Part shown: positions 17,518 through 39,004 of the stretch, piece after piece
Layout: every line of letters begins with the position of its first letter
Numbering within the stretch: the first letter of the stretch is position 1
The notes under the pieces: generated by a model
Told to the model about the DNA's origin: nothing
Seen by the model: the letters and a program-made list of their open reading frames with translations, nothing else
Databases searched by the model: none
Origin: Providencia rettgeri
GTDB lineage: Bacteria > Pseudomonadota > Gammaproteobacteria > Enterobacterales > Enterobacteriaceae
DNA length: 64,000 bases
Direction of reading: 5' to 3'
NCBI RefSeq assembly: GCF_041075285.1
Contig: NZ_CP163512.1
Span: forward strand, 3,038,001 to 3,102,000
Position numbers and translations under genes: made by a program

Positions 17518-17546
17518 TCGTCAATAACGGTCGACACTTTTGACGA
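17518..17546. promoter_or_regulatory. Activator palindrome upstream of fdhF (probable FhlA site)
   Basis: TCGTCA at 17518-17523 and TGACGA at 17541-17546 flank a central GTCGA, making two overlapping copies of the pattern TCGTCA-N4/5-(T)GTCGA in opposite directions that share the TCGA. The same arrangement appears before hydN, and one copy before hyfA. It is about 95 bases upstream of the -24 element, a usual distance for a sigma-54 activator. Nearby CATTTCGTGATT at about 17467 may be a further half site. The rest of 17349-17638 holds no gene. Confidence 0.6.
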
Positions 17547-17640
17547 TCACAGTAGGCGTTAAGCCTCTAGACAGTGCAATAATTATTTCAAGATTAGCAA
17601 ATTCAATATGTTAGCCATTAATAAATAGCGCTTAAAAATT

Positions 17641-17655
17641 GGCATAAACCCTGCA
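17641..17655 (+). promoter_or_regulatory. Sigma-54 (-24/-12) promoter of fdhF
   Basis: TTGGCATAAACCCTGCA has GG at 17641-17642 and GC at 17653-17654, separated by exactly 10 bases as sigma-54 promoters require. It lies 58 bases before the chosen fdhF start. Confidence 0.8.
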
Positions 17656-17712
17656 TTAGCTTAGGTGTTAAGGCGGCAATGACCGCTAAATAAAAACATA
17701 GGAGCAATGTTG

Positions 17713-19860
17713 ATGGAAAAAGTCATCACCGTCTGCCCGTATTGCGCCTCAGGCTGTAAAATTTACCTGAAGGTGGAGAACGGGAAGATCATCGGCGCAG
17801 AGGGCGCAAATGGTCACACCAACGAAGGGGAGCTCTGCCTAAAGGGCTATTATGGCTGGGACTTCATTCACGATACTAAAATCTTAACGCCTCGCTTAAA
17901 AAACCCGATGATCCGTCGTGAGCGTGGTGGCAAACTTGAAGTGGTTTCATGGGAAGAGGCCATTGAATTTGCGAGTTCTCGATTACTGGCAATCAAAGAA
18001 AAATACGGTCCTAAAGCTATCATGACAACCGGCTCATCCCGTGGTCCAGGTAATGAAGCCAACTTTGTGATGCAAAAATTTGTTCGCGCGGCAGTCGGTA
18101 GTAATAATATCGACTGCTGCGCACGTGTCTGACACGGCCCTTCGGTTGCAGGTCTGCAGCGTTCGGTCGGTAATGGCGCAATGAGCAACTCAATTGTCGA
18201 AATTGAGGATACCAAATGTATTTTTGTCTTCGGTTACAATGCCGCGGACTCACACCCTATTGTCGCTCGCCGAATTTTAAAAGCGAAAGAAAAAGGGGCT
18301 CAAATTATTGTTTGCGATCCGCGTTATATTGAAACTGCGCGCATTGCAGATATTCATTTACCTTTGAAAAACGGTTCAAATATTGCGTTACTGAATGCGT
18401 TTGCCCATGTGATCATCGAAGAAAATCTGTATGACAAAGCGTTTATTGATGCACATACTGAAAAATTCGACGAATATCGAGCCATCGTTGCTTCTTATAC
18501 CCCTGAATCTGTCGAGGAAACCACGGGTATCAAAGCAGAAGATATTCGTAAAACTGCTCGCATGTACGCGAAAGCAGAAAGTGCAACGATTTTGTGGGGT
18601 ATGGGTGTTACTCAGTTCTATCAAGGTGTTGAAACCGTACAATCCCTCACTAGTCTTGCGCTCTTAACGGGGAATTTAGGTAAACCAAATGTTGGTGTTG
18701 GTCCTGTTCGTGGGCAAAACAACGTACAGGGGGCCTGTGATATGGGGGCTTTACCAAATACCTTACCTGGTTATCAATATGTATCGGATACCGCGGCGTT
18801 GGAAAAATTCGCCAAGTTCTGGGGCATTGAAAGCATGCCTACTGAGAACGGGATCCCACTGAGCGAAGTACCGCACTTTATTGATGAGGGGGTGTTGAAA
18901 GCTCACTATGTGATGGGGGAAGACCCACTGCAAACGGAGCCCGATCTCGCCACTATCCGCCGTACTTTTGATAAGCTTGAGCTGTTGATCGTCCAAGATA
19001 TCTTCATGACTAAAACGGCGTCAATTGCTGACGTGATTTTTCCTGCCACTTCTTGGGGGGAACATGAAGGGGTTTATACCGCCGCTGACCGTGGTTTCCA
19101 ACGTTTCTATAAAGCGGTTGAGCCTGTCGGTGATGTAAAAACAGACTGGGAAATCATCAGTTTAATGTCAACCGCCATGGGTTACCCAATGCACTACAAC
19201 AATACCAAAGAAATTTGGGATGAGTTGCGTGAATTGTGTCCTATTTACTATGGTGCGACCTATGAAAAAATGGCGGATTTAGCCTATATTCAATGGCCAT
19301 GTAAGACCTTAGAAAGTCCCGGTACAGAGTATTTGTACAAAGGTGGTCAATTTGATACACCAAACGGTAAAGGCCAATTCTTTACCTGTGATTGGCGTCC
19401 ACCGATTGATCAAGTCAGCCCTGAATATCCGTTGGTGTTAGCAACGGTGCGTGAAGTGGGACACTACTCTTGCCGTTCAATGACAGGTAACTGCAAAGCT
19501 TTGGCGTCATTAGCAGATGAACCCGGTTTTGTACAAATCAATACCGAGGATGCAAAAGCATTAGGGATTAAAAACCAAGAGCTGGTTTGGGTCGCATCAC
19601 GGCAAGGTAAAGTGATTACCCGTGCTAATATCAGTGACCGACCGAATAAAGGCGCGGTGTACATGACGTATCAGTGGTGGATTGGTGCTTGTAATGAGCT
19701 TGTGGCAGAAAATCTTAGCCCAATTACTAAGACCCCTGAGTATAAGTACTGTGCCGTACGTGTTGAGCCAATCGCTGACCAACAAAAAGCTGAGTATTTT
19801 GTTGTTCAAGAATACACGGGAATTAAACGTCGGCTACGTGAGGCTGCTGAAGGCCTCTAA
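17713..19860 (+). CDS. fdhF: Formate dehydrogenase H (selenoprotein), read through an in-frame TGA at 18130
   Basis: FdhF oxidises formate to CO2 with a bis-MGD molybdenum cofactor and a [4Fe-4S] cluster, and passes electrons to a hydrogenase in the formate hydrogenlyase complex. CPYCASGC...LCLKGYYGWDF gives the cluster ligands. The frame meets TGA at 18130-18132 in the context DCCARV-U-HGPSVAGL, codon 140, the selenocysteine position of E. coli FdhF. With selenocysteine the product is 715 residues, the E. coli length. Later motifs include GVTQFYQGVE, RGQNNVQGACDMG and the C-terminal MTYQWWIGACNELV. Start at 17713 is preferred over ATG 17707 because AGGAG is then 8 bases away. Sigma-54 promoter upstream, terminator downstream. 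Hydrogenase-4 genes at 27-39 kb are the likely partner. Confidence 0.95.
18130..18168 (+). promoter_or_regulatory. Selenocysteine codon and bacterial SECIS hairpin in fdhF
   Basis: TGA at 18130-18132 is followed about 11 bases later by a stem-loop with TTGCAGGTCTGCA at 18146-18158. The loop GGTC and upper stem are those of the E. coli fdhF SECIS element bound by SelB. Lower-stem bases differ from E. coli in places. Confidence 0.88.
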
Positions 19861-19881
19861 TTTGCGATAAGCCAACAATTA

Positions 19882-19916
19882 AGCCAATGGTTGACATTAA
19901 GCCATTGGCTTTTTTA
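19882..19916 (+). terminator. Rho-independent terminator after fdhF
   Basis: AGCCAATGG (19882-19890) pairs with CCATTGGCT (19902-19910), followed by TTTTTATTT. The A/T-rich stretch from here to 20139 shows no gene. Confidence 0.88.
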
Positions 19917-20139
19917 TTTGGTTAATTAACAATAATTATATTAATAAATTATTGATAATTTGTTATTCAATCTGTTTTTAAAAATAATTATTTTTTTTAA
20001 TACATTTAATAACAATAATAATGTTTAAATATAAATAATAATGAATTTCATTAAGAAATGTATTTTCTATTTTTTATTACTTATAATTATGTGCAAATAA
20101 TTATGTGCTCGCTAACGAATATAATCAAAAAATAGAAAA

Positions 20140-21732
20140 TTAGAATAAATCTTGAACCGAGATGCCTAAGCGCTGCATTCGCGATAATAATGTGGTGCGT
20201 TTTAACCCTAGGCGAGTAGCAGCCCCCCTCGCCCCTGCCACCACACCATTCGTTGCACGTAGTGCTGCAATAATTCTATCCCGCTCTTCGTCATCACTTT
20301 CGGGGGCCCCCGTTTGCATGCGCTTTTCTATGGCGCTGGTTTTTTCGAAGGCATTTTTAAGGCGTGATGGCTTAGGAATATTGAGTTCATGTAATTGTAA
20401 ATTCAAGGTATTTCCTCGAGTTAAAATTACAGCTCGCTCAATGACATTTTCTAATTCTCGCACATTACCCGGCCACGGATATAACGATAACTGCGCAAGA
20501 GCATCACGCGGGATACACTCAATTTTACGGTTCATACGCTGAGCAATTTTTTGTGTAAAATGGGTAGCAAGTAACGGAATATCTTCAGGTCGTTCCCGCA
20601 GCGGTGGAATAATAATAGGGAAAACATTCAGCCGATAATAGAGATCCTCGCGAAACTCACGCTCTTCAGTCATGCCTTTTAAATCACGATTGGTTGCTGC
20701 AATCAGGCGTACATCCACAGGAATAACTTTATTGCCACCAATGCGTTCAATCTCACGCTCTTGCAGTACACGAAGTAATTTTGGCTGTAATTCTAATGGC
20801 ATATCGCCAATTTCATCTAAAAAAAGCGTGCTCTTATCCGCCATTTCAAAGCGGCCAATGTGGGTGGTGGTTGCCCCAGTAAATGCTCCTTTATCATGAC
20901 CAAATAAGTCACTTTCCAATAAACCAGACGGAACAGCAGCACAATTCATTTTAATGATCGCACGACGGTGGCGATCACTTAAACGGTGAATAGCGCGAGC
21001 AATCAACTCCTTACCTGTTCCGGTTTCCCCTAAAATCAGCACGGTGCTGTCGCTGCGTGCCACCAAATCCACTTGATCGAGCACATTGCGCATTGCGGCG
21101 CTCTGAAAAATGATTTCGCTGAAGCTTTCATTGCGGTGGATCTGCTCATTCAGCCAGAGGTTTTCATTTTTTAAACTGTCTTTCAAGCGTGTAATTTCAC
21201 CATACGCCGCCGCATTATCCACCGCAATCGCAAAACGCGCCGCAATCTGCTTAAGTAAATTGCAGTTATCGTCGGTGAAAATGCGGGTATCTTCATGGGA
21301 TAACATTAAAACCCCCAAGGGTTTATGATTAAATGCCAACGGCAATAATAAGGTTTCTGTCATCCCTTGGGCGCAAACTTGTTGGTACAGTGGGTCTTGA
21401 GTTGAGCGGTCAAGTGTCAAGCGCATAGATTGATTGTTTTCAAGCACTTGCGTTAAGTCAGGGTGTAATTCGTTTAAATGGTATTGGGTCTTTTCAACGG
21501 GTTTACCGCGACGATAATAACTTGAATAGCATAGATAGACCGCCGAACTATAATTATCACATAGGGCGATGCTAATTTGGCTAATACCGAAAAAACGGTA
21601 AATCTCCCGAGAAACTTCTGCAACTAATCCATCCATTTCTAAATGCGATAAGACGGAATTAGTAATATCTACCAGTATTCGATATTGGTCGCGTTCATGG
21701 CGTATACGTTCATTGCTTTCAGAGATCCCCAC
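20140..21732 (-). CDS. fhlA: Short FhlA-type sigma-54 activator with a single GAF domain
   Basis: FhlA activates the formate regulon with sigma-54 polymerase. This 530-residue protein aligns by eye with the C-terminal three quarters of E. coli FhlA: a GAF domain (about 18-172), a linker helix, an AAA+ domain with GETGTGKE (235-242), GAFTGA (282-287) and STLFLDEIGDM, and a Fis-type helix-turn-helix ending GAATRLGLKRTTLLSRMQRLG. E. coli FhlA has about 690 residues, so the first GAF region is missing here. The frame cannot extend upstream: the only start is GTG at 21732, and an in-frame TAA lies a few codons before it. It is divergent from hydN and next to fdhF. Which ligand it senses, if any, is open. 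HyfR is the alternative name. Confidence 0.85.
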   Translation of the reverse strand: MGISESNERIRHERDQYRILVDITNSVLSHLEMDGLVAEVSREIYRFFGISQISIALCDNYSSAVYLCYSSYYRRGKPVEKTQYHLNELHPDLTQVLENNQSMRLTLDRSTQDPLYQQVCAQGMTETLLLPLAFNHKPLGVLMLSHEDTRIFTDDNCNLLKQIAARFAIAVDNAAAYGEITRLKDSLKNENLWLNEQIHRNESFSEIIFQSAAMRNVLDQVDLVARSDSTVLILGETGTGKELIARAIHRLSDRHRRAIIKMNCAAVPSGLLESDLFGHDKGAFTGATTTHIGRFEMADKSTLFLDEIGDMPLELQPKLLRVLQEREIERIGGNKVIPVDVRLIAATNRDLKGMTEEREFREDLYYRLNVFPIIIPPLRERPEDIPLLATHFTQKIAQRMNRKIECIPRDALAQLSLYPWPGNVRELENVIERAVILTRGNTLNLQLHELNIPKPSRLKNAFEKTSAIEKRMQTGAPESDDEERDRIIAALRATNGVVAGARGAATRLGLKRTTLLSRMQRLGISVQDLF

Positions 21733-21955
21733 AAATACCCCATTCTTTTTTTATCATTTCCTTGAGATGTTATAAACACTCAAACTAATGGCCATTGATA
21801 TAATTAAATATCAATACGACACCAAATATGATTATTGTAATGACTCTTAAAGGAAAATAATATCATTGACTGATTTAACTTTGATCCAATCCCCTATTTT
21901 TTTATTATTAATTAAACTGTAATATATATTTCTATATAACGATTAAAATTCCACT

Positions 21956-21982
21956 TCGTCAATATTGTCGAAAACGTGACGA
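21956..21982. promoter_or_regulatory. Activator palindrome upstream of hydN (probable FhlA site)
   Basis: TCGTCAATATTGTCGA (21956-21971) is the 16-base motif TCGTCA-N4-TGTCGA. It overlaps an inverted, slightly shortened copy ending TGACGA at 21977-21982. Both copies share the central TCGA exactly as in the fdhF site. It lies 82 bases before the -24 element of hydN, in the gap shared with divergent fhlA. Confidence 0.6.
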
Positions 21983-22061
21983 ATCGTTTTTTCCACTACA
22001 AATAAAATATCTCTTTATTTATTAATACACTGATTTCACTGGATTTAATTATTTTTTCAAT

Positions 22062-22078
22062 TTGGCACGATCCATGCT
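22062..22078 (+). promoter_or_regulatory. Sigma-54 promoter of hydN-hypA-hypC
   Basis: TTGGCACGATCCATGCT has GG at 22064-22065 and GC at 22076-22077 with 10 bases between. TTGGCACG is an excellent -24 match. Confidence 0.85.
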
Positions 22079-22158: not shown

Positions 22159-22707
22159 ATGAACCGTTTCATCATTGCAGATCCCAAAAAATGCATTGGC
22201 TGCCATACCTGTGAAGTCGCGTGTGTGGTGTCCCACCAAGAACAAGAAACGGGGATCGCCACTGTTATCAAAGATGAATTTTTTCCACGTATTCACGTAT
22301 TAAAAGGCTATACCGTCAGTACTGCGGTAGTATGCCGCCAATGTGAAGATGCCCCGTGTGCCAATGTATGTCCAAACGGTGCGATCAGCCGTAAAGACGA
22401 TTTTGTCTATGTCGACCAATCAAAGTGCATTGGTTGCAAAACCTGTGTGATCGCCTGCCCTTACGGCACCATGGAAGTGGTCAGTCGCCAAATCGATCAA
22501 CAAGTGACCGCCCTGAATACTATTCCACAATATCGTGCTGAGGCACATAAATGCGATTTATGCCATACCCGCGAAGCTGGCCCTGCCTGTGTGGAAGTGT
22601 GCCCAACAGAAGCGTTAATGATTGTTGATAGAAACCGTATGGATGAGATCGTTAAAGAGCGTCGACGCCGCGCCGCCTTTGAAATCCCACCAGATATCTT
22701 ACTGTAA
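22159..22707 (+). CDS. hydN: HydN, polyferredoxin of the formate hydrogenlyase system
   Basis: HydN is a small iron-sulfur protein needed for full FdhH activity and thought to carry electrons. The 182-residue product has four [4Fe-4S] cysteine groups: CIGCHTCEVAC near residue 11, CRQCEDAPCANVCP, CIGCKTCVIACP and CDLCHTREAGPACVEVCP. The start is ATG 22159, preceded by GGAGAG; the reading MNRFIIADPKKCIGC matches E. coli HydN from its first residue. It is the first gene after the sigma-54 promoter, followed by hypA. It belongs to the same family as HyfA in the hyf operon. Confidence 0.93.
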   Translation: MNRFIIADPKKCIGCHTCEVACVVSHQEQETGIATVIKDEFFPRIHVLKGYTVSTAVVCRQCEDAPCANVCPNGAISRKDDFVYVDQSKCIGCKTCVIACPYGTMEVVSRQIDQQVTALNTIPQYRAEAHKCDLCHTREAGPACVEVCPTEALMIVDRNRMDEIVKERRRRAAFEIPPDILL

Positions 22708-22717
22708 GGAGCGTGCG

Positions 22718-23059
22718 ATGCATGAGGTTGCACTATGCCAAAATGCCTTTGAGATCATTGAACAGCACGCCAAGCAGAATCATGCACACCGAGTTACAGG
22801 GGTTTGGCTTGAATTAAGCGCAGTCTCTTGTATCGAAGAGTCCGCCGTGCATTTTTGCTTCGATATTATTTGCCGTAACACCCTTGCCCAAGGGGCTGCG
22901 CTCCATGTATCTATTGTGCCTGCTCAGGCACAATGTCGCGATTGTCGGCGCACAATCCAGATCACCCAGTTTGAGGCCGGCTGTCCACACTGTGGCAGCC
23001 GGAATTTGCACATTGACAGCAGCGGCAGTATGCAGGTCAAACAGATTGAAGTTGAATAA
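22718..23059 (+). CDS. hypA: Hydrogenase nickel-insertion protein HypA/HybF
   Basis: HypA delivers nickel to the large subunit of NiFe hydrogenases together with HypB. The 113-residue protein begins MHE, whose His2 is the nickel ligand of the family, and carries a zinc site of two CxxC pairs, CRDC and CPHC. The start is set at 22718, since MHE is conserved and AAGGAG is 7-8 bases upstream. It is 10 bases after hydN and 21 before hypC. hypB, which in many enterics lies between hypA and hypC, is absent. Confidence 0.93.
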   Translation: MHEVALCQNAFEIIEQHAKQNHAHRVTGVWLELSAVSCIEESAVHFCFDIICRNTLAQGAALHVSIVPAQAQCRDCRRTIQITQFEAGCPHCGSRNLHIDSSGSMQVKQIEVE

Positions 23060-23080
23060 GACGATGTTTAGGAGTTTATT

Positions 23081-23353
23081 ATGTGTTTAGGCATCCCCGG
23101 AAAAGTCGTCGGCGTAGGTAGATCGCCGATGGATACCGCGCAAGTTGAAGTCTGTGGCGTCAAACGCGATGTGAATATTGCGCTGGTTTGTGAAGGGGAA
23201 ACCGCCACAATGATCGGTAAGTGGGTACTCGTTCACGTGGGTTTTGCCATGAGTATCATTGATGAACAAGAAGCCCACGATACCCTTGCGGCCTTAATGG
23301 CGATGGAAGAAGTCGAGGAAGACGTTGGCTACTTTTTACGAGGTAATGCTTGA
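23081..23353 (+). CDS. hypC: Hydrogenase assembly chaperone HypC/HybG
   Basis: HypC binds the Fe(CN)2CO precursor and hands it to the hydrogenase large subunit. The 90-residue product starts MCLGIPGK; Cys2 is the essential ligand exposed after removal of Met1. [15 protein letters not shown] and [17 protein letters not shown] are family signatures and look closer to HybG than to E. coli HypC. It is the last gene of hydN-hypA-hypC; hypD and hypE are not present in the window. Confidence 0.93.
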
Positions 23354-24540: not shown

Positions 24541-24545
24541 TCGCT

Positions 24546-27083
24546 TTAATCGGCTCGTGTTGAAATAGCTTGAGGCACAAACTGTAAAACCTTACTGCTG
24601 TACCATTTGGCTTGCCCTTGCGCACTAAAGGGAAGGTTTTGATATTGGCCACTTAACCAATCTTCAATATTATCGGAATAATGTGGACTGGCTGGATTTG
24701 CGGATTGTCCCGTATTGTTCATTACCCATATAGAGTCTGGTTGGCTAAAATCCACAATCAAACGCATTGCCGGGATCAACAACGTATCAAAATTAGCGCC
24801 CATACTGTAACTTGCTATATTTACCGTATTCAGATTGCCACCCGCAGGATAAGGCCCGCGATCTAGATAACTAGCGAGTCGCTCAATGGTTCGTCGCTGT
24901 TGTTTTGGCAAATATGCCGCCATTTGTGACGACAAGCTGTTCCATTTATATCGATGTAATTGTCCCCATTCCCAGCGTGAATAGTCTTTACCTAACTGCT
25001 GCTCCCCTTGCTGATGTGCCATTGCCAGTGAGTAAGCGATAATCGATGCTTTACCGCTGCGAGCGCGAGTCGCTTTTTGCCAAAAAGGACTGGTCTTAAT
25101 CCCTTGATCATTTTGAAAAAGTAAATGATCTGCTTGAGCTGAATAAGATTTAGAACTTTCAATAAATGCCTTCCAAGCCTGCGGAGAATGCGCAAACTTA
25201 TCGGCAAACAGTTGCTGACTAAAATTGGCTAAAAATAAGTTATACAACGCAGCGCCAGCACTATTTGCATGTAAATAACCGTCAAAAGCGAATAAACGTT
25301 GCTGCGCGAGTCGGGCCTGTTCTTGCTCCGGTTGCGGCATCTGAGAAATAGCCGTTTCTAACTCAGGTTCCTTTAAATAGTGCTGCAATTTGGCAACCAT
25401 CGGATCTAACTGGTCATACTGTATCTGTTGCATCGTCGCAACATCATGTTGACGCGTCCCATTCAATAATTCAGAAATTCGCTCGAAACGTTCTGGATGT
25501 GCCCATGTTTGTGAAAAATTAATGGGATAGTCTTTCTCAACCACTCGCTGGTTAGCTGTCGCAAGCCACGCACTACGGTGCTTAATTGATGAAGGATAAT
25601 CTTGGTTAGATACTGTCCCAATCCAGTCATATTCGCCATTCCATCCCGGAGAAGGAAATAACCCCAGCCCCATTTTGCGTAGTGGATAACTCCCTGTCAG
25701 TTGCCAGCCAATATGTTGTTTGTCGGCAAACAACATATTGACAGAAATAACTTTAATTTCTTTTGCTAATTCAATCGCTTGAGTCACTTGTTTTTGTTTG
25801 GGGATCTCCATCAGCGCATTGATACTAATATCATCTTTCTGTGGCATCAGGGTACTCAGGGCTATGCCATATTGAGATTGCACCTCAAGAGGTTGCAGTA
25901 GATAACTTTGTTCTTTCAGTGACTCATTGAGTAACGTGCCATGCTGCGTATGATAGATATTTTCCACAACATCGGGTTTACCTCTTAGATGAAACACCGC
26001 TTGTGTCTGTTTAACTGGGTACCATTTTTGTTGATATAAGTATTCAAACCCGCTATCCGTTTTTCTTATTTGCTCTAAAAACAGGTCTTGGTTATCCGCC
26101 ATCACCATGGTATAGCCCCAAGCCAAATCAGGTGTTCCACCCAATACAATGGCAGGGATCCCCGGAATTGCAGCGCCAGCCATAGCTAATTCAGGCGTAT
26201 CAATTTGAATAAAACTCCACAACGATGGCAAACCAATTGGAAGATGCGTATCGTTCGCCAGTAATGTCCCATTATTTTTCGTAAGATCACGGGTAACAGC
26301 CCAGTTATTAGATGCCATAACATCATGAAAATTAATATTTTTTAAAGATTGACTGGCAAGTGTTAGCGGTTCTATTTCAGGCGCTAATGGGCGCAAGTCT
26401 AACCCCTGTAGTTTTTTCGCTTCTTGATGGGGAAGCGGCTCATCGGGATAGGTAGGAAATAACCAAGGAAGCAGGTTTGCATCTAATTGTTGGGCGATAA
26501 TTAAGCTATCTATCTCTTCGTGTAGGTTGCCTGCCAAGCCAAAATTAGCAAGAGATAAAATAAGGATTGCGTCATCAGGTCGCCATTTGGGTACGTTATA
26601 ATTAGCAGCTGATAAATCCATAGGCAGCTTATCTTGATGACTATCAAGCCAAGCGTTTACCCCATTTGCATACGCTTCGAGGTAACGGCGGTTTTGAGGG
26701 CTAACATTATGATATAAGGTATCTGCCGCTTCGCGAAAATGCATTTTACGCATAAAACTGTCAATACCAATGGCTGGTTCACCCAGATACTCCGTTAAAC
26801 GCCCTTGTGCGGTTAGCCGCATTAATTCCATATGACTAATGCGTTCAGATGCGTGAACATACCCCCATACCAGATAAACATCTTCAAGGTTTTCCCCTTT
26901 AATTAAAGGAACGCCCATTGAATTATAACGCACGCTAACGGGGGATTTTAATCCCGCCAAGATAACCTGGCCTTCTGTTTTTGCAAGGGTGTCCGCATAG
27001 TAATGATTGAGTAAACTATGGCAACCTGAAAGTAAGAATAACCCGCTGATTAAAAAAGATAAAAGTAATCCCTTACCCCGCAT
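24546..27083 (-). CDS. Penicillin acylase (S45) family lipoprotein
   Basis: S45 enzymes are N-terminal nucleophile hydrolases that cleave amide bonds of acylated substrates such as acyl-homoserine lactones, cyclic lipopeptides or penicillins. The start is set at 27083, where GGAG is 6 bases upstream; an ATG at 27113 is possible. The signal peptide ends LLSGC with the lipidated cysteine at residue 21, so the protein is membrane anchored, unusual for this family. The nucleophile is Ser258 in ASNNWAV; the residue before it is Ala, where many members have Gly. TAQGRLTEYLG and LANDTHLPIGLPSLW also fit. It is not the classic penicillin G acylase of Providencia, whose sequence differs. The substrate is unknown. 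Confidence 0.82.
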   Translation of the reverse strand: MRGKGLLLSFLISGLFLLSGCHSLLNHYYADTLAKTEGQVILAGLKSPVSVRYNSMGVPLIKGENLEDVYLVWGYVHASERISHMELMRLTAQGRLTEYLGEPAIGIDSFMRKMHFREAADTLYHNVSPQNRRYLEAYANGVNAWLDSHQDKLPMDLSAANYNVPKWRPDDAILILSLANFGLAGNLHEEIDSLIIAQQLDANLLPWLFPTYPDEPLPHQEAKKLQGLDLRPLAPEIEPLTLASQSLKNINFHDVMASNNWAVTRDLTKNNGTLLANDTHLPIGLPSLWSFIQIDTPELAMAGAAIPGIPAIVLGGTPDLAWGYTMVMADNQDLFLEQIRKTDSGFEYLYQQKWYPVKQTQAVFHLRGKPDVVENIYHTQHGTLLNESLKEQSYLLQPLEVQSQYGIALSTLMPQKDDISINALMEIPKQKQVTQAIELAKEIKVISVNMLFADKQHIGWQLTGSYPLRKMGLGLFPSPGWNGEYDWIGTVSNQDYPSSIKHRSAWLATANQRVVEKDYPINFSQTWAHPERFERISELLNGTRQHDVATMQQIQYDQLDPMVAKLQHYLKEPELETAISQMPQPEQEQARLAQQRLFAFDGYLHANSAGAALYNLFLANFSQQLFADKFAHSPQAWKAFIESSKSYSAQADHLLFQNDQGIKTSPFWQKATRARSGKASIIAYSLAMAHQQGEQQLGKDYSRWEWGQLHRYKWNSLSSQMAAYLPKQQRRTIERLASYLDRGPYPAGGNLNTVNIASYSMGANFDTLLIPAMRLIVDFSQPDSIWVMNNTGQSANPASPHYSDNIEDWLSGQYQNLPFSAQGQAKWYSSKVLQFVPQAISTRAD

Positions 27084-27182
27084 TATTAGCTCCATGGGTT
27101 GAATTTTGTTCATGAGCCATTATAGGTGTGATTAAGTGAAATTAAATAAGGGGATTCTTATCGTGAGGCGAAAGAGTAATAA

Positions 27183-29775: not shown

Positions 29776-29789
29776 AATATGCCCTCCGC

Positions 29790-31523
29790 CTATTTCATTA
29801 TCGACTGTTTACGGTCGATGCTGTGCTGCTCAAGTTCTTTGTATGCCACGGTTTTGGCTTTGCGTTTTTTCACATCCACCAGCGTCACACGGTCGGTACA
29901 AGAGTAACAAGGGTCAAGACTACCGATGATCAACGGCGCATCGGAAACCGTATTGCCTTGCAACATATAGCGCAGTACAGGCCAATTGGCATAAGTTGCC
30001 GCACGGCAGCGCCAGCGGTACAGTTTTTGGTTATCCCCTAACATACTCCAGTGGACATCTTCCCCACGCGGCGCTTCGGTATAACCCAGCGCAAATTTAT
30101 GTGGCTGGTAGGTAAAGCCTTCCGTGAGGATTGGCCCTTCTGGCATGTTATCCAGCGCATATTCAATCATCGACAGAGAGTCCAACGTTTCTTTAATACG
30201 CACCATTACTCTTGAATACACATCGCAACCATCAAGACTGAATAAGGTTTTTGGTAGATTGCCATAATCCGCAAATGGGTGGTCAAAACGCACATCGCGT
30301 TTAAAACCACTCGCACGGATCATTGGTCCCACAGGGCTGTAATCGCGAGCAACTTGTGGCTCTAGACGACCCACACCCACAGTACGCTGCTCCATATTCG
30401 GCGTGCTCAATAACATATCCACTAATTGCGTGACATCGCGGCGCATCTCTTGGACTAACTGAATGGTTTTCACACGCTGTTCTTTGAGGAAATCACGGCG
30501 AACACCACCAATCAAGTTGGTGCCATAGGTTTTGCGCGCCCCAGTCAGCAATTCCGCCATGGTCATGGACTTTTCACGTACGCGGAAAAATTGCATAAAC
30601 CCCGTGTCAAACCCGGTAAAATGGCTGGCTAAGCCGATATTCAATAAGTGGCTGTGAAGGCGCTCAACTTCTAAAAGTACGCTGCGAATGGTGTGCGCCC
30701 GTTGCGGTACATAGATACCCAGTGCATTTTCCACCGAAGAGGTGTATGCCACGCTATGGGTGAAGCCGCAGATACCGCAGACACGATCGGATAAAAACGT
30801 GACTTCGTTATATCCCATACGGGTTTCCGCCAGCTTTTCCATCCCACGATGGACATAGAACATGCGGTAGTCCGCATCAACAATGCGTTCGCCATCAACA
30901 AATAAGCGAAAGTGTCCCGGTTCATCAGAGGTGATATGCAGCGGGCCAATTGGCACCACGCGGCTTTGGGTTTTACTGTCGTTGATAAACTCGTAGGTTT
31001 CCGTGTCTGTGGTGGGTGCTGGGCGTTGGCGATAATCCATCGTGTCTTTGCGCAGCGGATATAAATCTTCAGGCCAATCATCGGGTAAAACCAAACGGCG
31101 TTCATCAGGTAAACCAACAGGACGCAGACCGTACATATCACGGATTTCCCGCTCCCCCCATACCGCTGCGGGTACACGTGGCGTGACCGACGGAAATTCT
31201 TGGGTAATTGGGTTAACAAACGCTTTCACCGTCACCCAGCATTTCTCCCCCTCTTCCATTGATAATGCGTAATACACCGCAAACTGACCATTAAGTGGGC
31301 GCTCATCATTGCCCCATAAAACAGGCAACCACCCGCCGCAGCCGTAGTAAAGGAACTCCACCACCTCAGGCAGCATATCTGTTTTCACCGTGATGGTGAG
31401 CTGGTTAGCGGTTTGCCACTCTTGTTCTAGCACCGCATGCGGAAATTTCTCACGCACTTGTGTCAGGTAGCCAACGCCTTTACGAACGCCTTGAAGGGTA
31501 TCTGTATAGTTCTGATAGCTCAC
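29790..31523 (-). CDS. hyfG: Hydrogenase-4 large subunit HyfG
   Basis: HyfG is the catalytic NiFe subunit; an N-terminal NuoC-like part (to about residue 180) is fused to a NuoD-like hydrogenase part. Nickel-binding pairs are RVCGICGF in the middle and DPCYSCTDR near the C-terminus. The tail after DPCYSCTDR is the extension expected to be removed by the HycI-type protease, here fused at the operon end. RDMYGL and RRLVLPDDWPEDLYPLRKD mark the NuoC-like part. The start is GTG at 31523 with GGAG 7 bases upstream, giving 577 residues and a 1-base gap to hyfF; an upstream ATG at 31556 would overlap hyfF and lacks support. Confidence 0.94.
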   Translation of the reverse strand: MSYQNYTDTLQGVRKGVGYLTQVREKFPHAVLEQEWQTANQLTITVKTDMLPEVVEFLYYGCGGWLPVLWGNDERPLNGQFAVYYALSMEEGEKCWVTVKAFVNPITQEFPSVTPRVPAAVWGEREIRDMYGLRPVGLPDERRLVLPDDWPEDLYPLRKDTMDYRQRPAPTTDTETYEFINDSKTQSRVVPIGPLHITSDEPGHFRLFVDGERIVDADYRMFYVHRGMEKLAETRMGYNEVTFLSDRVCGICGFTHSVAYTSSVENALGIYVPQRAHTIRSVLLEVERLHSHLLNIGLASHFTGFDTGFMQFFRVREKSMTMAELLTGARKTYGTNLIGGVRRDFLKEQRVKTIQLVQEMRRDVTQLVDMLLSTPNMEQRTVGVGRLEPQVARDYSPVGPMIRASGFKRDVRFDHPFADYGNLPKTLFSLDGCDVYSRVMVRIKETLDSLSMIEYALDNMPEGPILTEGFTYQPHKFALGYTEAPRGEDVHWSMLGDNQKLYRWRCRAATYANWPVLRYMLQGNTVSDAPLIIGSLDPCYSCTDRVTLVDVKKRKAKTVAYKELEQHSIDRKQSIMK

Positions 31524-31524
31524 G

Positions 31525-33105
31525 TTATTTCTCCTGCACTGATGCTGTCGAGGCACTCACACCCCACGGCCATTGGTAATGTAATTGAGTTGATTCTGCT
31601 GATGCTGCCGCGCTATCGGTTAATACAATAGTGGCGGCATTTTCTAATAAACGGCTAACTGGCTGCGGAATATGCGTCCCCATCACTAACATCAATACGA
31701 TGAGAATGGCCATTGGCAGTGTGGTTAATAGCCCTAACTCGCCACGAGACACACAATCCGGTTGTTCCCCAAATAAGGTTTTCGAAATCATGCGCACCAA
31801 TCCGCCTAATACGATGGTGATTAATACTAAAACCAGCAGTGTGAGCCAAAAATGGTTCGCCGCAATCCCTGCCACCACAATCATGAATTCACTGAGGAAA
31901 ATATTGAATGGTGGCATACCACCCAGCGCTAACGCGCCCCCGGCAAATACCACGGCCGTAAATGGCATTGTACGCAGTAAGCCTTTCACTACGGTGATAT
32001 CCCGCGTGCCATATTTCAGTAAAACATTCCCAGAACCGCAGAACAGCAGGGTTTTACCCAAACTGTGGTTTAGAGTGTGCAGCAAAGCGGCCAACACGCC
32101 TAATGGTCCCCCGATGCCTAATGCCACGGCTATTAGCCCCATATTTTCCACACTGGAATAGGCCAGCAGACGTTTCATGTCTTTTTGCACTAAGATAAAG
32201 AACGCCGCGACCGCCACTGAGAGTAAGCCAAATACAAGAAGCAGTGTCTGAGTGAATGCGCCACCGATCGCTGAGGTCACGATGATGTAATAGCGAATAA
32301 TGATAAGCAGCGCGCAGTTAAGCAGCACCGCAGAAAGTAATGCAGACGTTGGGCTTGGTGCTTCACTGTGCGCATCGGGTAACCAAGCGTGCATTGGGAA
32401 CAAACCCGTTTTGGTACCAAAACCAATCAACACAAAGACAAACGCTAAGTGCATCAAGGTGGGATCAAGTAACTCGGTGTATTTCAGTACCTCTGTCCAA
32501 AAAATGGCCAACTCAGGGTTTGGCATCACATTGACTGCGTTCGCATACACCAAAATCGTACCGAACAGACCAAACGCTACCCCTACGCTACAAATAATGA
32601 TGTATTTCCACGCCGCTTCCAATGAAGAACGCTGCCCATAAATACCCACTAAGAAAGCCGAGCTGAGCGTGGTTGCTTCCACCGCCGCCCACATTAAGAT
32701 CAGATTATTACTGGTGATCACCAATAACATGGTGAATAAGAAGAGATGGAAGAAACCGTAATAATGACACAGCGTTCTTACACTAATTTCCCCGTCTGCC
32801 ACTTCATGGTTCATATAGCCGATGGAATACAGACCGGTTAAGAAGCCGACAATCCCTAAGATGGCGAGAAACAACCCTGCCAGACTATCTAGGTGGATCC
32901 AATATCCTGCCATCAGTAAATCACCGACCTCACTGATGGTGTTGACCATCCACAATGACAACACCAATAGCGCGACAATACCAACAGTATGCACCAGTGT
33001 GACTGCGAATTTTGCGCCGCTACCCAGTAAGCGGCATGCAAAGGCCAGCAGTGAAATTACTAGCGGCGTTGCCATTAATAACGTTAACAACATGCTTTGA
33101 CTCAT
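31525..33105 (-). CDS. hyfF: Hydrogenase-4 membrane subunit HyfF (NuoM/L-type antiporter homologue)
   Basis: One of the Mrp/NuoL-type membrane subunits that make hydrogenase-4 larger than hydrogenase-3. The 526-residue length is that of E. coli HyfF. It has about 14 hydrophobic segments and conserved charged residues within them: the glutamate in [14 protein letters not shown], lysine in [25 protein letters not shown], and histidines in [13 protein letters not shown]. These residues form the proton path in complex I relatives. It lies between hyfE and hyfG. Confidence 0.93.
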
Positions 33106-33109
33106 CTCA

Positions 33110-33760
33110 TCACCCCTTCAGCGCGGTCAGTTGATCCACGTTCAGTGTGTTGAGCGTGCGATAGATTTTACGCGCCAGTACCGCCATGATAATCACGGCA
33201 AAAATCGCATCGGTAGCGATACCAATTTCCACCAGCTCCGGCGCTTTGTAAGCGAGTAAGGCCAAGGTCAGGTGAGAACCGTTTTCCATCAAGCAGTACC
33301 CAAACGCCTGTTTGAGAATATTGCGCTGCGTGACGATGCACAGTAGGCCTAACATAAAGTGACCGAGGGAAACCGCCAAGGCGGGTTTAAGCTCAGTAGC
33401 AATCGGCAGTTTGATAGGTTCGACCACAAACCAGCACAGCACCACAATCACCGCCGCTGCTAACATCAACCATGCTGGGCTAATTACCCCACCATTGGCA
33501 GATGGATCTGACAGTTTGCGAAATGCATAACCTAAAATCACCGGTACTAAAATCACTTTGGTAATCAACGCCGAACCCGCCCACATAGCTAATTCAGGAG
33601 CATCGAGGGTCTGGGATAAGGTGCCAAAAATCGCCACTAATACTAGCGATTGCAAGGCATAGAACCAGCACGAGGCCACAGGGCGTTTCACCCCAATAAC
33701 TAACAGCGAGGTGATCATCATCAATCCCGCTAAATTATTCACAATCATGGAACCAGTCAT
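33110..33760 (-). CDS. hyfE: Hydrogenase-4 membrane subunit HyfE
   Basis: HyfE resembles the NuoK/MrpC-type small membrane subunits fused to extra segments. The 216-residue product has six or seven hydrophobic segments, and its length equals E. coli Hyf[29 protein letters not shown] with the buried glutamate is the family hallmark. It starts 12 bases after hyfD with GGGGGAG before the ATG. Confidence 0.92.
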
Positions 33761-33772
33761 ACTCTCTCCCCC

Positions 33773-35215
33773 TTAACCGAGCCAGATGACAGCGATGACA
33801 CTCGAACAGAAGGACATCACGATCAGTAAACCAATCACCCACTGCATCGCCCATGGCACAGCACTACCATTCGCCACTTCTTCACTTGGCTCACCGGGCA
33901 CCACTTTGCCAAACCAGTACAGCAGCCATGCAAAGCTAGCGACGGACTCAATCAACACCAACACCATGATTGGCGTCAGGATCCAGAAGTGTTCGGAAAG
34001 GGCGAAGCCTGCCGCAAAGATAGGGAATTTACTGAAGAAACCGTTAAGCGGTGGTACACCAGCAATGGCCAGTGCGGCAACGCAAAACCCAACACCCAAT
34101 AGTGGGTAACGTTTTGCTAATCCGCGTAAACGTGGCAGCATCCGTGTTCCGCAGCTATAACTGAGCGCACCCGCGACAAGGAAGAACAAGCTTTTGGCAA
34201 AAGCGTGGTTGAAGATATAGGCGATTCCGCCTTGGAAAGCCTCTTTCGACCCAAATACAGATAAAGACAGCGCCAAGAAGATATAAGCCAGTTGGGTGAT
34301 TGTTGACCATGCCAGCAGACGTTTCATGTCTTTTTGCGGCAAGTACATCATAAAACCATAAACCAACGTGATGACGGCCATCACCACACCCACCCAACCA
34401 ATGATTTCCGGCACATGATCAGAAGACATTAAGCTACGGGCAAAGATATACACCCCAACCTTCACCATCGAAGCCGCATGTAAGTAAGCACTCACTGGGG
34501 TAGGTGCCTCCATGGCATCGGGTAGCCAAGCTTGTAAAGGAAGTTGGGCTGATTTCCCCCATGCAGCAAATAAAATACCGCCAAACACCATTAAACTTGC
34601 TGGCTGATTGAGCTGACCGATAGCACTCAAGGCGAATGTGCCTGTGTTAATAAATAAGGTGGCAGCGGCCAAATACAGCCCTAACGAACCGATATGGGTA
34701 ATCAACAGCGCTTTCATGGCACTGCGTTGGGATTTCTCTGTCTGGTAATACCCAATCAGTGCCCAAGAACATCCTCCCGTAATTTCGAAGAACACCAACT
34801 GACCTAAAATGGTGGAAGATAACACCACTCCCGCCATTGCACCGATAAATACCAGTAAAAATGCATAGTAGCGGCGAGTAGGCCCATGGGCGTGTTCACG
34901 ATTTCCTTCGGTTAAATAACCTGTTGAATATAAACAGATTAAAAACCCCAAAAATACGACAGCAAAAGCAATTAAGGTGCTAACGCCGTCAATGGTGAAA
35001 CCAAATAACTCGACCTCACCAGCTTGGACAAGCACCAGCGAGGTGGCGACTTTACCGCCTGATAAATACAACCAGCCGAGGATCCCCGTACCGATTGAGG
35101 CAATTAGCGCAACAAGGGTACTCAACCACGGTGCCATGCGGGTGGGTAAGCTACTCACCAGTAACGCGCCAATAAATGGAATAAGTAGCGTGGCGAGTGC
35201 AATATTTTCTAACAT
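33773..35215 (-). CDS. hyfD: Hydrogenase-4 membrane subunit HyfD (antiporter-type)
   Basis: A second NuoL/M/N-type proton-pumping subunit. The 480-residue protein, with about 14 hydrophobic segments, begins MLENIALATLLIPFIGALLV, the same as E. coli HyfD from its start; an ATG 19 codons upstream is rejected because it lies inside hyfC. The glutamate in FFEITGGCSWALIGY, lysine in AAWGKSAQLPLQAWLPDAMEAPTPVS and HAASMVKVG are the conserved buried charges. GGAG lies 9 bases before the ATG. Confidence 0.92.
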   Translation of the reverse strand: MLENIALATLLIPFIGALLVSSLPTRMAPWLSTLVALIASIGTGILGWLYLSGGKVATSLVLVQAGEVELFGFTIDGVSTLIAFAVVFLGFLICLYSTGYLTEGNREHAHGPTRRYYAFLLVFIGAMAGVVLSSTILGQLVFFEITGGCSWALIGYYQTEKSQRSAMKALLITHIGSLGLYLAAATLFINTGTFALSAIGQLNQPASLMVFGGILFAAWGKSAQLPLQAWLPDAMEAPTPVSAYLHAASMVKVGVYIFARSLMSSDHVPEIIGWVGVVMAVITLVYGFMMYLPQKDMKRLLAWSTITQLAYIFLALSLSVFGSKEAFQGGIAYIFNHAFAKSLFFLVAGALSYSCGTRMLPRLRGLAKRYPLLGVGFCVAALAIAGVPPLNGFFSKFPIFAAGFALSEHFWILTPIMVLVLIESVASFAWLLYWFGKVVPGEPSEEVANGSAVPWAMQWVIGLLIVMSFCSSVIAVIWLG

Positions 35216-35228
35216 GCTGTGTCGCTCC

Positions 35229-36179
35229 TTATAGACCGGTGAGATAAAAAACGAATCCGAGTGCTGCAACACCGAATCCTAACCAAGTCACATGGTGCGT
35301 TAGTAAGAAACGACCACGCGCCAAACTGTTTTCCACCAACGACGCCAGTACAAAAATCACCAGTAATTTCACCAGCAATAGCACCAACGCCATCAGCAGG
35401 CTGCCTACCGTCAACACACTGGCATTACCAAATGGGAAAAAGATAGATAAAAACAGCACGGCAACAATAACTTGTTTGAGGCCTATGCCCCACTTCACCA
35501 AGGCTAAGCCTGAACCTGAATACTCCGTTAATGGCCCTTCTTGTAGCTCTTGCTCCGCTTCGGCCACATCAAACGGGATTTTCCCCATTTCAATAAAAGT
35601 GGCAAAACCGCAAGCTAACAGCGCTAAAAAAGTGGCGGTGGGCGAAATCCAACCTTCACTCATCACCGAACTGATCGTGCCGATATTGGTTGAGCCGGCG
35701 ATCAGTGCCACCACCAATAGGCCAAGGAATAAAATCGGTTCAACTAACACCCCAAGAGTCAGTTCACGGCTTGCCCCAATCCCTGCAAATGGGCTACCTG
35801 TGTCTAAACCGGAAAGTGAAAAGAAAAAACGAAAGAGCGCAAAAATATACAGCACGATAATTAGGTCACCCGCACCACTAAATAACGAGTTCAAGGTGAA
35901 AACGGGTAAAGCCATCGCTAACAACAACATGCTGCCAAGCAGCACATACGGCATGATGCGAAAAATGATCCCAGAATCACGTGGCGCAACAGACTGGCGT
36001 TTTAGTAACTTGGTGATATCGCGATAATCCTGCCAAATACCTGGGCCTTGGCGCGAATGCATTTTGGCGCGAATTTGCCGTGAAATACCGGTAAATAATG
36101 GCGTTAGCAGCAGCAAAATCACGGCTTGGATTACGGCAAAGAACCCCATCATCAATGTTGGTGCTTCTTGAATTGTCAT
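35229..36179 (-). CDS. hyfC: Hydrogenase-4 membrane anchor HyfC (NuoH-type)
   Basis: HyfC corresponds to HycD/NuoH, which connects the soluble arm to the membrane arm. The start is ATG at 36179 with GGAG five bases upstream, giving 316 residues. TPLFTGISRQIRAKMHSRQGPGIWQDYRDI is the NuoH-like cytoplasmic loop, and EMGKIPFDVAEAEQELQEGPLTEYSG is the invariant acidic loop. Earlier in-frame starts would fall inside hyfB. It has about eight hydrophobic segments. Confidence 0.93.
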   Translation of the reverse strand: MTIQEAPTLMMGFFAVIQAVILLLLTPLFTGISRQIRAKMHSRQGPGIWQDYRDITKLLKRQSVAPRDSGIIFRIMPYVLLGSMLLLAMALPVFTLNSLFSGAGDLIIVLYIFALFRFFFSLSGLDTGSPFAGIGASRELTLGVLVEPILFLGLLVVALIAGSTNIGTISSVMSEGWISPTATFLALLACGFATFIEMGKIPFDVAEAEQELQEGPLTEYSGSGLALVKWGIGLKQVIVAVLFLSIFFPFGNASVLTVGSLLMALVLLLVKLLVIFVLASLVENSLARGRFLLTHHVTWLGFGVAALGFVFYLTGL

Positions 36180-36190
36180 GGTTTCTCCCC

Positions 36191-38206
36191 CTACGCCGCG
36201 ATCACGACAAGCAACACCACCAACGCAGCAACAACATACAGGCAGTACAGCCTGAAGTCTCCGCCTTGTAAGCACTGCATGCGCTTCGCGATCCGATTAA
36301 TACAACGGACAAATGGGTAAATAATCTTCTCATCCCAGAAAGGCTCAACATTACCCGCCCCTGTTTTCGTCATCTCTAAGGTTTGCGCTAAACGATCCGA
36401 TGGGTCGAGTTGCTCACGCATACGGTAAAGCGGTGCAAACATAGAACGCAGCGGTTGAGTAAAGCCCCCCGCAGACACTGACATGTCTTTTTCCCATGCA
36501 TAACCACACGCCCACGCATCCCCTTTGCGGCGATAGCTCATTTGCTTGCCTTTGAACACCAGATAAATAATGAAAGGAATAAGCGGTAAAGCGAGTAACA
36601 GAACGAAAGTCATCGCTGGGGAAATCATTGCTTGTGCTGCGCTATCAGGCATTAACATCGCCCCTTGGGCAACCGTGATATCTGTTGCACTGGTTAATGA
36701 CATCGCCACATTCGCCAATACAGGGGCAATCACACTAGCCCCCACGCCTAAAATGACGCAGATAGCGGCTAAAACCAGCATGGCTGCGGTCATTGTCCAA
36801 GGAACTTCCCGTGCTTTTGTCGCTTGTTCACTGCGCGCACCGCCACAGAAACTCACACCATACACCTTGACAAAACACATCGCCGCCAGCGCCCCTGTGA
36901 TGGCTAACATCACGATGGCGATAGGACCACTGATACGCATGATGAATGTGCCTTCATGGCTCATTGAGAAAAGGGATTGATAGGTGTACCACTCACTAAC
37001 AAAACCGTTTAAGGGGGGTAAAGCAGAAATCGCCATACAGCCGATTAAAAAGGCGGTTGCCGTCAATGGCATTAATTTGGCTAATCCCCCCATTTTTTCC
37101 ATATCGCGGGTATGTATACGATAAATCACCGCCCCTGCGCCTAGGAACAACAGCCCTTTAAATACCGCGTGGTTAAGCAGATGGTAAACCGCGCCGAGCA
37201 GACCTATGGTCGCGAGTACCGGCATATTATTTGCCATACCGACCATACCAACGCCGACACCCATCAAAATAATGCCGATATTTTCAACGGTATGCCATGC
37301 TAGCAAGCGCTTAATGTCGTGCTCCGCCAGTGCATACATCACACCAAGAACAGAAGAGACAGCACCAAAGGCCAACACCACAATGCCCCACCAACCTTGA
37401 GTTGCACCTAGCAAGTCGATAGCCACTTTGCTGATCCCAAAAATACCGATTTTCACCATTACCCCTGACATCAACGCGGAGGCATGTGACGGTGCTGCGG
37501 GGTGAGCTTGTGGTAACCAACTGTGTAATGGAAGCATCCCTGCTTTGGCACCAAAGCCAAAAAATCCCAATAAAAACACTATCGATGCCATCGTTGGCGA
37601 AAGCGTAAGTTGACGGAAGGAGTCGAAGTCTAAGCTGCCACTTTGTCGCCACATTAAGAAGAACGCTATCATGATCAAGATCGAACCCGCATGGGCGATA
37701 AAGAAATACAGCAAGCCAGCGCGAATGGATTTGTCATCTTGATCAGCAATAACGAGGAACCAAGATGCGAGTGACATCATTTCAAATAAGATAATGAAAT
37801 AAAACGCATTATCCATCACCACCAGCGCCACCATGGAGGCGATAAAGATATTGAGGAAGAAGCCCATGCTCCAAGCCCCACGTCCACAATACTCCTGAAC
37901 ATAATTCAATGAATATAGGGCGCTGACGGTAACCAGCAACGAAATCACCATCACCATAAAGGCGGCTAAGCCATCCATCCGAACGACAAAATGAGCAAAT
38001 GGGAACGGCCCTTGTGCCATATACGTCAGGACTTCACCATTCATTAAAACTGGAATGGCGCTAAACAACCCTAATAAGCCACCGATAATCGCCGAAATCC
38101 CTGCCACATAAATGGCGATTTTTTCTTGGCGCTTAAACAGCAACGAGGCAAACCCACCGACGGTATATAACGCAATTGACCACAAAAGTAATTGAAGCGC
38201 TGTCAT
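36191..38206 (-). CDS. hyfB: Hydrogenase-4 membrane subunit HyfB (NuoL-type)
   Basis: HyfB is the NuoL/HycC-like antiporter subunit. From ATG 38206 (GGAG 10 bases upstream, inside the end of hyfA) it has 671 residues, about the E. coli length, and begins MTALQLLLWSIALYTVGGFA. Membrane motifs include FEMMSLASWFLVIADQ, FGAKAGMLPLHSWLPQAHPAAPSHASALMSGVMVKIG and HTVENIGIILMGVGVGM. The cytoplasmic tail contains RRKGDAWACGYAWE and GDFRLYCLYVV. It lies directly after hyfA. Confidence 0.93.
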   Translation of the reverse strand: MTALQLLLWSIALYTVGGFASLLFKRQEKIAIYVAGISAIIGGLLGLFSAIPVLMNGEVLTYMAQGPFPFAHFVVRMDGLAAFMVMVISLLVTVSALYSLNYVQEYCGRGAWSMGFFLNIFIASMVALVVMDNAFYFIILFEMMSLASWFLVIADQDDKSIRAGLLYFFIAHAGSILIMIAFFLMWRQSGSLDFDSFRQLTLSPTMASIVFLLGFFGFGAKAGMLPLHSWLPQAHPAAPSHASALMSGVMVKIGIFGISKVAIDLLGATQGWWGIVVLAFGAVSSVLGVMYALAEHDIKRLLAWHTVENIGIILMGVGVGMVGMANNMPVLATIGLLGAVYHLLNHAVFKGLLFLGAGAVIYRIHTRDMEKMGGLAKLMPLTATAFLIGCMAISALPPLNGFVSEWYTYQSLFSMSHEGTFIMRISGPIAIVMLAITGALAAMCFVKVYGVSFCGGARSEQATKAREVPWTMTAAMLVLAAICVILGVGASVIAPVLANVAMSLTSATDITVAQGAMLMPDSAAQAMISPAMTFVLLLALPLIPFIIYLVFKGKQMSYRRKGDAWACGYAWEKDMSVSAGGFTQPLRSMFAPLYRMREQLDPSDRLAQTLEMTKTGAGNVEPFWDEKIIYPFVRCINRIAKRMQCLQGGDFRLYCLYVVAALVVLLVVIAA

Positions 38207-38207
38207 G

Positions 38208-38825
38208 TTAGAGGTTCTCCTGCCGTGAGACAAAAATGTCGAACTCTGGCGGCATTGCATCGACAGACGCATTGCGGCGTTTCGCACTTTCGTTTTCCAA
38301 TTGGCTTTCCTCAACCAGATGGAGGGCATCCGTTGGGCAAACCTTCACACATGCAGGTCCATTTTCGCTAAAATCACATAAATCGCATTTCACGGCGATA
38401 TTGCGAATGCCCGCATTCCACGCTAAAAATGGGTTCATGGTCGGTAAACTGTCTGGTACATCAAGCAGCATCTCTTTCGGTACATATTGCTCAAAGAAAT
38501 CAGGCATATTGACAGGTTTACTACCGGATGGTGTGATCGCCCCAAACGGACACACCAAGCCGCACAGCTTACAACCAATGCACAGGCTCTCATTCAACAC
38601 GATCATGCCATTGTCATGTGTAATCGCGTTCACTGGGCACACCCGCGCACACGGTGCATCGTCACACTGACGACACAACATCGGGGCGGTTAGCTCTCCT
38701 ACTTTCACCACATTTAGTCTCGGATGTGATTGTAATCCCTGTGCCTTGTGTGTTTCTGAACAGGCTGCCATGCAGGTATTACATCCGATACATAATTGCG
38801 GGTCGGCAATCACAAAGCGATTCAT
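38208..38825 (-). CDS. hyfA: Hydrogenase-4 ferredoxin HyfA
   Basis: HyfA is the HycB-like polyferredoxin thought to take electrons from FdhF. It is 205 residues, the E. coli length, with four cysteine groups: CIGCNTCMAACSE, CRQCDDAPCARVCP, CIGCKLCGLVCP and CDLCDFSENGPACVKVCP. It is first in the operon; hyfB starts 1 base after its stop region. A sigma-54 promoter lies 57 bases upstream and an activator palindrome beyond it. Confidence 0.94.
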   Translation of the reverse strand: MNRFVIADPQLCIGCNTCMAACSETHKAQGLQSHPRLNVVKVGELTAPMLCRQCDDAPCARVCPVNAITHDNGMIVLNESLCIGCKLCGLVCPFGAITPSGSKPVNMPDFFEQYVPKEMLLDVPDSLPTMNPFLAWNAGIRNIAVKCDLCDFSENGPACVKVCPTDALHLVEESQLENESAKRRNASVDAMPPEFDIFVSRQENL

Positions 38826-38881
38826 TCGCCTTACCCTCCAATCAAATTGGTCGAATTATTAATATTGATATAGCTGTCTTA

Positions 38882-38896
38882 GCATATTTCATGCCA
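38882..38896 (-). promoter_or_regulatory. Sigma-54 promoter of the hyf operon
   Basis: On the minus strand TGGCATGAAATATGC has GG and GC exactly 10 bases apart, GG opposite 38894-38895 and GC opposite 38882-38883. It ends 57 bases before the hyfA ATG. Confidence 0.8.
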
Positions 38897-38945
38897 TGAT
38901 TATTTTTATTAATTATCAATTAGTTAACTAAATAAAAAAGGAAGA

Positions 38946-39004
38946 TCGACACTAATGACGATAAGATTGGAGGGTAAATGCTCTTATCGACACTCGCTTG
39001 TCGT
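38946..39004. promoter_or_regulatory. Activator motifs upstream of hyfA (probable FhlA sites)
   Basis: TCGACACTAATGACGA (38946-38961) is, read on the minus strand, TCGTCATTAGTGTCGA, the same TCGTCA-N4-TGTCGA motif found before fdhF and hydN. A second, weaker copy starting TCGACACT lies at 38987-38994, 41 bases (about four turns) further on, ending near TTGTCG at 38999-39003. The first copy is 50 bases from the -24 element. The remaining bases to 39420 are very AT-rich and show no gene. Confidence 0.6.

Follow-up and report, generated by a model that had tools for sequence, protein, structure and literature searches.

A putative operator of an FhlA/HyfR-type activator shared by three sigma-54 promoters of a compact formate hydrogenlyase regulon in Providencia rettgeri

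In Escherichia coli, the activator FhlA has a formate hydrogenlyase (FHL) regulon that comprises fdhF, hydN-hypF, hyc, hyp and hyf, with hypABCDE listed among its targets (PMC7658346). In Proteus mirabilis, the activity of the hyf and fdhF promoters, as followed with reporters, drops when fhlA or rpoN is mutated. Both promoters are described as induced by formate and by anaerobiosis; the fhlA promoter is described as independent of FhlA and RpoN (PMC7658346). In Pectobacterium atrosepticum, a hyfR mutant is reported to have very low FHL-2 activity (PMC7384014). Here we analyse a stretch of 64,000 nucleotides from Providencia rettgeri (contig NZ_CP163512.1, 43% G+C; hereafter the window, in whose positions all coordinates are given), taken from a genome of 4,350,954 bases. 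In this window the 16-mer TCGTCA-N4-TGTCGA stands before fdhF, hydN and hyfA, and it is very probably the operator of one enhancer-binding protein of the FhlA/HyfR type, the product of 20140-21732, which would control the FHL regulon.

The locus resembles the E. coli regulon in that the same palindrome lies upstream of sigma-54-like elements at the same kinds of target genes, and the operons are the same as those under FhlA-RpoN control in P. mirabilis according to PMC7658346. It differs from E. coli in several respects: the regulator gene lies within the single 22-kb cluster that the regulon forms, the genes after hydN are of the hypA and hypC types instead of hypF, and hypABCDE belongs to the hyb cluster and lacks a site. 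HyfR of E. coli has 670 aa and is encoded within the hyf operon, whereas the regulator here is the 530-aa product of a separate gene and has a single GAF domain. The regulon is an ordinary FHL-2 system, which fits what is known of E. coli and Proteus, and the short regulator is a modest surprise.

A repeated motif before three sigma-54 promoters

The 16-mer is present exactly where the initial annotation had placed it, on the minus strand at fdhF and hyfA and on the plus strand at hydN (Table 1). The label "reverse" given to fdhF applies only to the asymmetric reading of the motif, as the gene itself is on the plus strand. That each copy lies upstream of a -24/-12 element with 10-base GG/GC spacing also holds: when all 16-mers in the window were scored with the RpoN matrix from PMC7658346 (maximum 21.3 bits), the three elements took ranks 2 to 4, and the next 16-mer below them reached 12.4 bits. 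All three contain GG-N10-GC with the conserved flanks, as sigma-54 promoters should. The top sigma-54-like match of the window (TGGCGCGGCAATTGCA, 61116-61131, minus strand, 16.9 bits) is outside the regulon.

None of 100 shuffled windows contains the exact 16-mer, against three copies in the real one. In the whole genome there are three exact matches, all inside the window, and one match to the reversed control pattern; hence the random occurrence elsewhere that had been named as grounds for doubt is not seen.

Conservation across the genus

Among 24 genomes of the genus, the regulator gene was found in 15 and HyfG in 14, the difference being G023. All of the 15 regulator-bearing genomes have at least two exact 16-mers no farther than about 40 kb from the regulator gene, and such clusters occur in none of the other nine. 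The latter have one exact match in total (in G011), located within a long open frame. The off-cluster exact matches in the regulator-bearing genomes number four; the three inspected are within long open frames, and the fourth is on contig 35 of G014. Another regulator might own the motif and co-control the three operons, with the FhlA/HyfR-type protein binding elsewhere; FNR, for example, is described as also controlling hydrogenase genes in E. coli (PMC7658346). We regard this as very improbable, because motif clusters and regulator gene are present or absent together in 24 of 24 genomes, the sites lie at the usual distances of sigma-54 enhancers, and E. coli hydN has an exact match.

The promoters were then compared in 43 rows, namely 14 fdhF, one fdhF paralogue (G016), 14 hydN and 14 hyfA promoters, most of which were retrieved via motif matches and do not form a blind sample. 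The comparison does not include hydN and hyfA of G023, for which tblastn gave no match in the 7.5 kb retrieved, or the main fdhF gene in G016, where the open frame of the retrieved stretch starts only inside the gene. All 43 rows contain TCGWCA-N4-TGWCGA and, after it, a sigma-54 element that scores 12.4-16.3 bits. The hydN promoters of G002, G003, G014 and G022, which were retrieved without an exact match, all read TCGACA-N4-TGTCGA. As judged by eye, the flanks of the operator differ between species while the palindrome is kept at orthologous promoters.

G016 (locus L182, beside hyfA) and G222 (L260) each have an additional fdhF-like gene that is preceded by an operator and a sigma-54 element of its own and is likely an extra member of the regulon there.

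Weighing the operator reading

The operator reading draws on the exclusivity of the exact motif, its co-occurrence with the regulator in the genus, its retention at orthologous promoters, its exact agreement with the hydN site of E. coli and the P. mirabilis reporters. The initial annotation, which had proposed an FhlA-type operator before three sigma-54 promoters of an FHL regulon, is supported to this extent, with the binding itself predicted. The regulator would bind TCGWCA-N4-TGWCGA, probably as a dimer via its Fis-type helix-turn-helix. Formate sensed by the lone GAF domain would favour an active ATPase ring, and DNA looping would bring the ring to sigma-54 RNA polymerase at the -24/-12 elements, 58-102 bases off. 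Consequently, fdhF, hydN-hypA-hypC and hyf would be switched on together, and their predicted products, a formate dehydrogenase, an electron carrier and a hydrogenase with its maturation factors, would constitute formate hydrogenlyase-2.

Several observations weigh against this reading. First, loosening the motif brings no enrichment: with up to two mismatches the 16-mer has 266 matches in the whole genome against 395 for the control, and the symmetric TCGWCA-N4-TGWCGA with up to one mismatch has 36 matches, from 18 places counted on both strands, as compared with 64 for the control. Of the 15 one-mismatch places, four that lie outside the window (L256-L259) were inspected, and each is within a long open frame. 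The specialness is therefore confined to the exact motif. That matches with one or two mismatches are no commoner than the control is also what would be expected if the three copies were chance or a dispersed repeat. This explanation is nevertheless hardly credible, since the three exact copies stand against none in the shuffles and the motif is kept across the genus at orthologous promoters.

Second, the published 14-base FhlA matrix (PMC7658346, table 2) places none of the three sites among the 40 best matches in the window. Third, no CGWCA-N4-TGWCG was found in the 18-kb hyb-hypABCDE stretch of this genome (at 2.727 Mb, with hypABCDE next to the hyb genes), so the expectation that hypBCDE would be a target fails here. 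The sigma-54-like matches above 11 bits in this stretch score 11.7, 12.1 and 15.1, the strongest being in an open frame beyond the hyp genes. Fourth, G023 (L197) has no HyfG match in the genome and has kept the fdhF operator despite a disrupted regulator: a truncated regulator gene abuts IS3-like transposase frames, as seen by eye. The fdhF promoter of G023 is duplicated exactly (450 of 450 bases compared), with the copies 722 bases apart, which accounts for both exact matches there. These features indicate a decaying FHL locus in G023. Finally, binding of the sites by this protein is a prediction from sequence, a point that also favours the other-regulator explanation.

Extent of the conserved unit

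The compound palindromes of 27-29 bases described by the initial annotation at fdhF and hydN do read as stated, and the true operator could be such a compound element sharing TCGA, with the 16-mer only a part of it. In support, both compound elements exist in the window, and the third half-site at hydN (TGWCG, 11-12 bases start-to-start past the right half of the palindrome) is present in 14/14 hydN promoters of the genus. However, the 29-base spacing recurs in only three of 14 fdhF promoters (G000, G017 and G020), most others having the half-site about 20 bases off or none near, and the hyfA site of the window has no overlapping partner. The elements are also weakly self-complementary, with 18/29 positions in the fdhF 29-mer and 16/27 in the hydN 27-mer. 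We hold the compound operator to be very improbable. From these promoter comparisons, the conserved unit is the palindrome TCGWCA-N4-TGWCGA with its W positions varying, and the 27-29-base compounds are mostly not kept, the third half-site of hydN excepted.

At hyfA, the partner described about 41 bases away is present as an imperfect palindrome (Table 1). The upstream TGTCGAT is found in the window, G001, G017 and G020, and TGACG stands at a similar position in G004 and G018.

Comparison with E. coli and the published consensus

Inverted TGWCG half-sites four bases apart are common to the window sites and to the putative FhlA sites of E. coli K-12 hydN, hyfA and fdhF. The hydN site (TCGTCACTAGTGTCGA) is identical to the 16-mer motif of the window; its best sigma-54 match is weak (10.6 bits, GG-N10-GA) and has its GG 69 bases away. 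The hyfA site (CGACACGGGTGTCG, CGACA-N4-TGTCG) and the fdhF site (CGTCAAAACTGACG, CGTCA-N4-TGACG) are 103 and 79 bases, respectively, from the GG of their best matches.

The consensus given in PMC7658346 is TGWC-N6-GWCA, as compared with TCGWCA-N4-TGWCGA in the window. The matrix from the same source gives low scores, 5.1-8.2 of 17.2, to the E. coli fdhF, hydN and hyfA palindromes as well. In the E. coli hycA/hypA region there is no N4 palindrome; a direct TGTCGA repeat is found instead, and it has the top matrix score (16.2 of 17.2). Consequently, the published matrix seems to capture the same half-site in a different arrangement. The compact FHL-2 regulon would have a clear operator code, common to E. 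coli and the genus, whose sites here the published 14-base consensus misses.

Spacing between operator and promoter

Within the genus, the palindrome centre and the GG of the -24 element are 58-59 or 68-70 bases apart in hyfA promoters and 68 bases apart in that of the fdhF paralogue. The distance is larger at hydN (99-101 bases) and fdhF (100-103 or 112 bases). A family search for CGTCA-N4-TGWCG followed by TGGCA-N7-TGC gave matches in 117 of 295 genomes, at 150 or more places, and 143 of the 150 places listed fall in peaks at 58-59, 67-72, 78-82, 90-95, 99-105 and 110-116 bases. Derived from this first set, the peaks take in 33 of 61 distances, and they were fixed before the complementary pattern was searched. 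The latter matched in 47 of 295 genomes, with 54 of 66 places in the peaks; seven of the 66 are genus promoters already known, and without them 47 of 59 remain in the peaks (counted by hand). The reversed control gave about 20 matches against 66 in the second search, and about 24 in the first (by hand). The strict 10.5-base coherence was 0.34 in the second set versus 0.56 in the first, and the mean phase moved (8.4 versus 6.7); related genomes in both sets are not independent. The distances suggest spacing in steps of about one helical turn, that is, on the same face of the DNA.

The regulator

In Pfam terms, the regulator consists of one GAF domain, Sigma54_activat with GAFTGA in its AAA+ domain, an AAA lid and HTH_8. 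The N-terminal region of about 180 residues ahead of the GAF-AAA-HTH core in E. coli FhlA (692 aa) is absent from it. In a tree of 50 sequences built on the shared region, in which E. coli HyfR and the Photobacterium outgroup form long branches, it groups with E. coli HyfR in a clade of 28 rows (96 bootstrap, 90 in the Shimodaira-Hasegawa-like approximate likelihood ratio test). Forcing 14 rows of the window clade together with seven FhlA-side rows costs 178 log units and is rejected by the approximately unbiased test (p 0.0003). A regulator of the E. coli FhlA type is ruled out by the missing N-terminal region together with this placement. The initial annotation, which names FhlA, needs changing in this respect, as the putative activator belongs to the HyfR clade.

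The short forms of the genus and of groups g93 and g83 make up one clade (100/99 in the same two measures). A second short group consists of G202, G026, G177, G165 and G259, and some other forms are intermediate, so loss of the N-terminal region seems to have occurred more than once. Upstream of the Photobacterium homologue the frame stays open for 188 codons, and the longer form is therefore probably ancestral. This locus, used as the outgroup, is the only one taken from a regulator scan of genome contigs, the rest of which gave mostly generic sigma-54 activators.

Residue 291 is the F of GAFTGA in three short regulators of g83, which matches the position of the F291I mutant of P. mirabilis mentioned in PMC7658346. 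From this agreement, g83 is probably Proteus, and the regulator of the formate-induced system in P. mirabilis is probably of the short type.

Formate binding by E. coli FhlA is reported to depend partly on E183 and E363, and FhlA minus its N-terminal domain is reported to have formate-independent activity (PMC11291172). The equivalents of E183 and E363 are E and E in the window regulator, G296 and G300, D and E in E. coli HyfR, and Q and E in a longer protein of G093. It is conceivable, if somewhat doubtful, that a HyfR-clade activator that has lost its N-terminal region acts as the sole formate sensor of the regulon, one GAF domain with two glutamates being sufficient. The shortened activator could thereby place formate sensing in a single GAF; if so, it would be a natural minimal formate receptor, and helical-turn spacing would be a rule shared by FhlA- and HyfR-type activators. 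The short form did not turn up in a search of the open-access literature.

Autoregulation was also considered. Toward the regulator, no sigma-54 match scores above 1.8 bits; since no sigma-54 element is found on that side (the gene runs away from hydN), the regulator is probably not autoregulated.

Genes of the cluster

The features of the cluster are listed in Table 1. The hypA- and hypC/hybG-type genes were named by eye, and hyfA-hyfI were named from their order and length relative to E. coli.

Table 1. Sites, promoter elements and genes of the putative FHL regulon in the window.
Feature	Position	Strand	Remarks
Extra half-site at fdhF	17518-17523	+	TCGTCA; completes 29-base compound element
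fdhF operator (upstream activating sequence), putative	17531-17546	-	plus strand reads TCGACA-N4-TGACGA; centre to GG of -24, 102 bases
fdhF -24/-12 element	17640-17655	+	TGGCATAAACCCTGCA; GG-N10-GC; 14.6 bits; rank 3
fdhF, formate dehydrogenase H	17707-19860	+	in-frame TGA at 18130-18132, presumed selenocysteine by homology
FhlA/HyfR-type sigma-54 activator, putative	20140-21732	-	530 aa from GTG; in-frame stop 7 codons upstream
hydN operator, putative	21956-21971	+	TCGTCA-N4-TGTCGA; centre to GG, 100 bases
Third half-site at hydN	21977-21982	+	TGACGA
hydN -24/-12 element	22063-22078	+	TGGCACGATCCATGCT; GG-N10-GC; 16.2 bits; rank 2
hydN	22160-22707	+	
hypA-type gene	22718-23059	+	another copy in hyb cluster
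hypC/hybG-type gene	23081-23353	+	another copy in hyb cluster
hyf operon (hydrogenase-4)	27457-38825	-	
Fused hycH-hycI gene	27457-28452	-	end of hyf operon
hyfA -24/-12 element	38881-38896	-	TGGCATGAAATATGCT; GG-N10-GC; 14.5 bits; rank 4
hyfA operator, putative	38946-38961	-	TCGTCA-N4-TGTCGA; centre to GG, 58 bases
Secondary imperfect palindrome	38988-39003		CGACA-N6-TGTCG; upstream of hyfA operator, 41 bases away

The hydN operon thus holds second copies of hypA- and hypC-type genes (22718-23353), hypABCDE itself being in the hyb cluster. Of 14 genus genomes with a match, nine have the HycH-HycI fusion, as does G127; HycH and HycI are encoded by two separate genes in E. coli and are also separate in the other five genus genomes and in all six genomes searched from g83 and g93, three of each. 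Just past the end of the hyf operon lies the gene of a large protein of the penicillin-amidase family (24546-27113).

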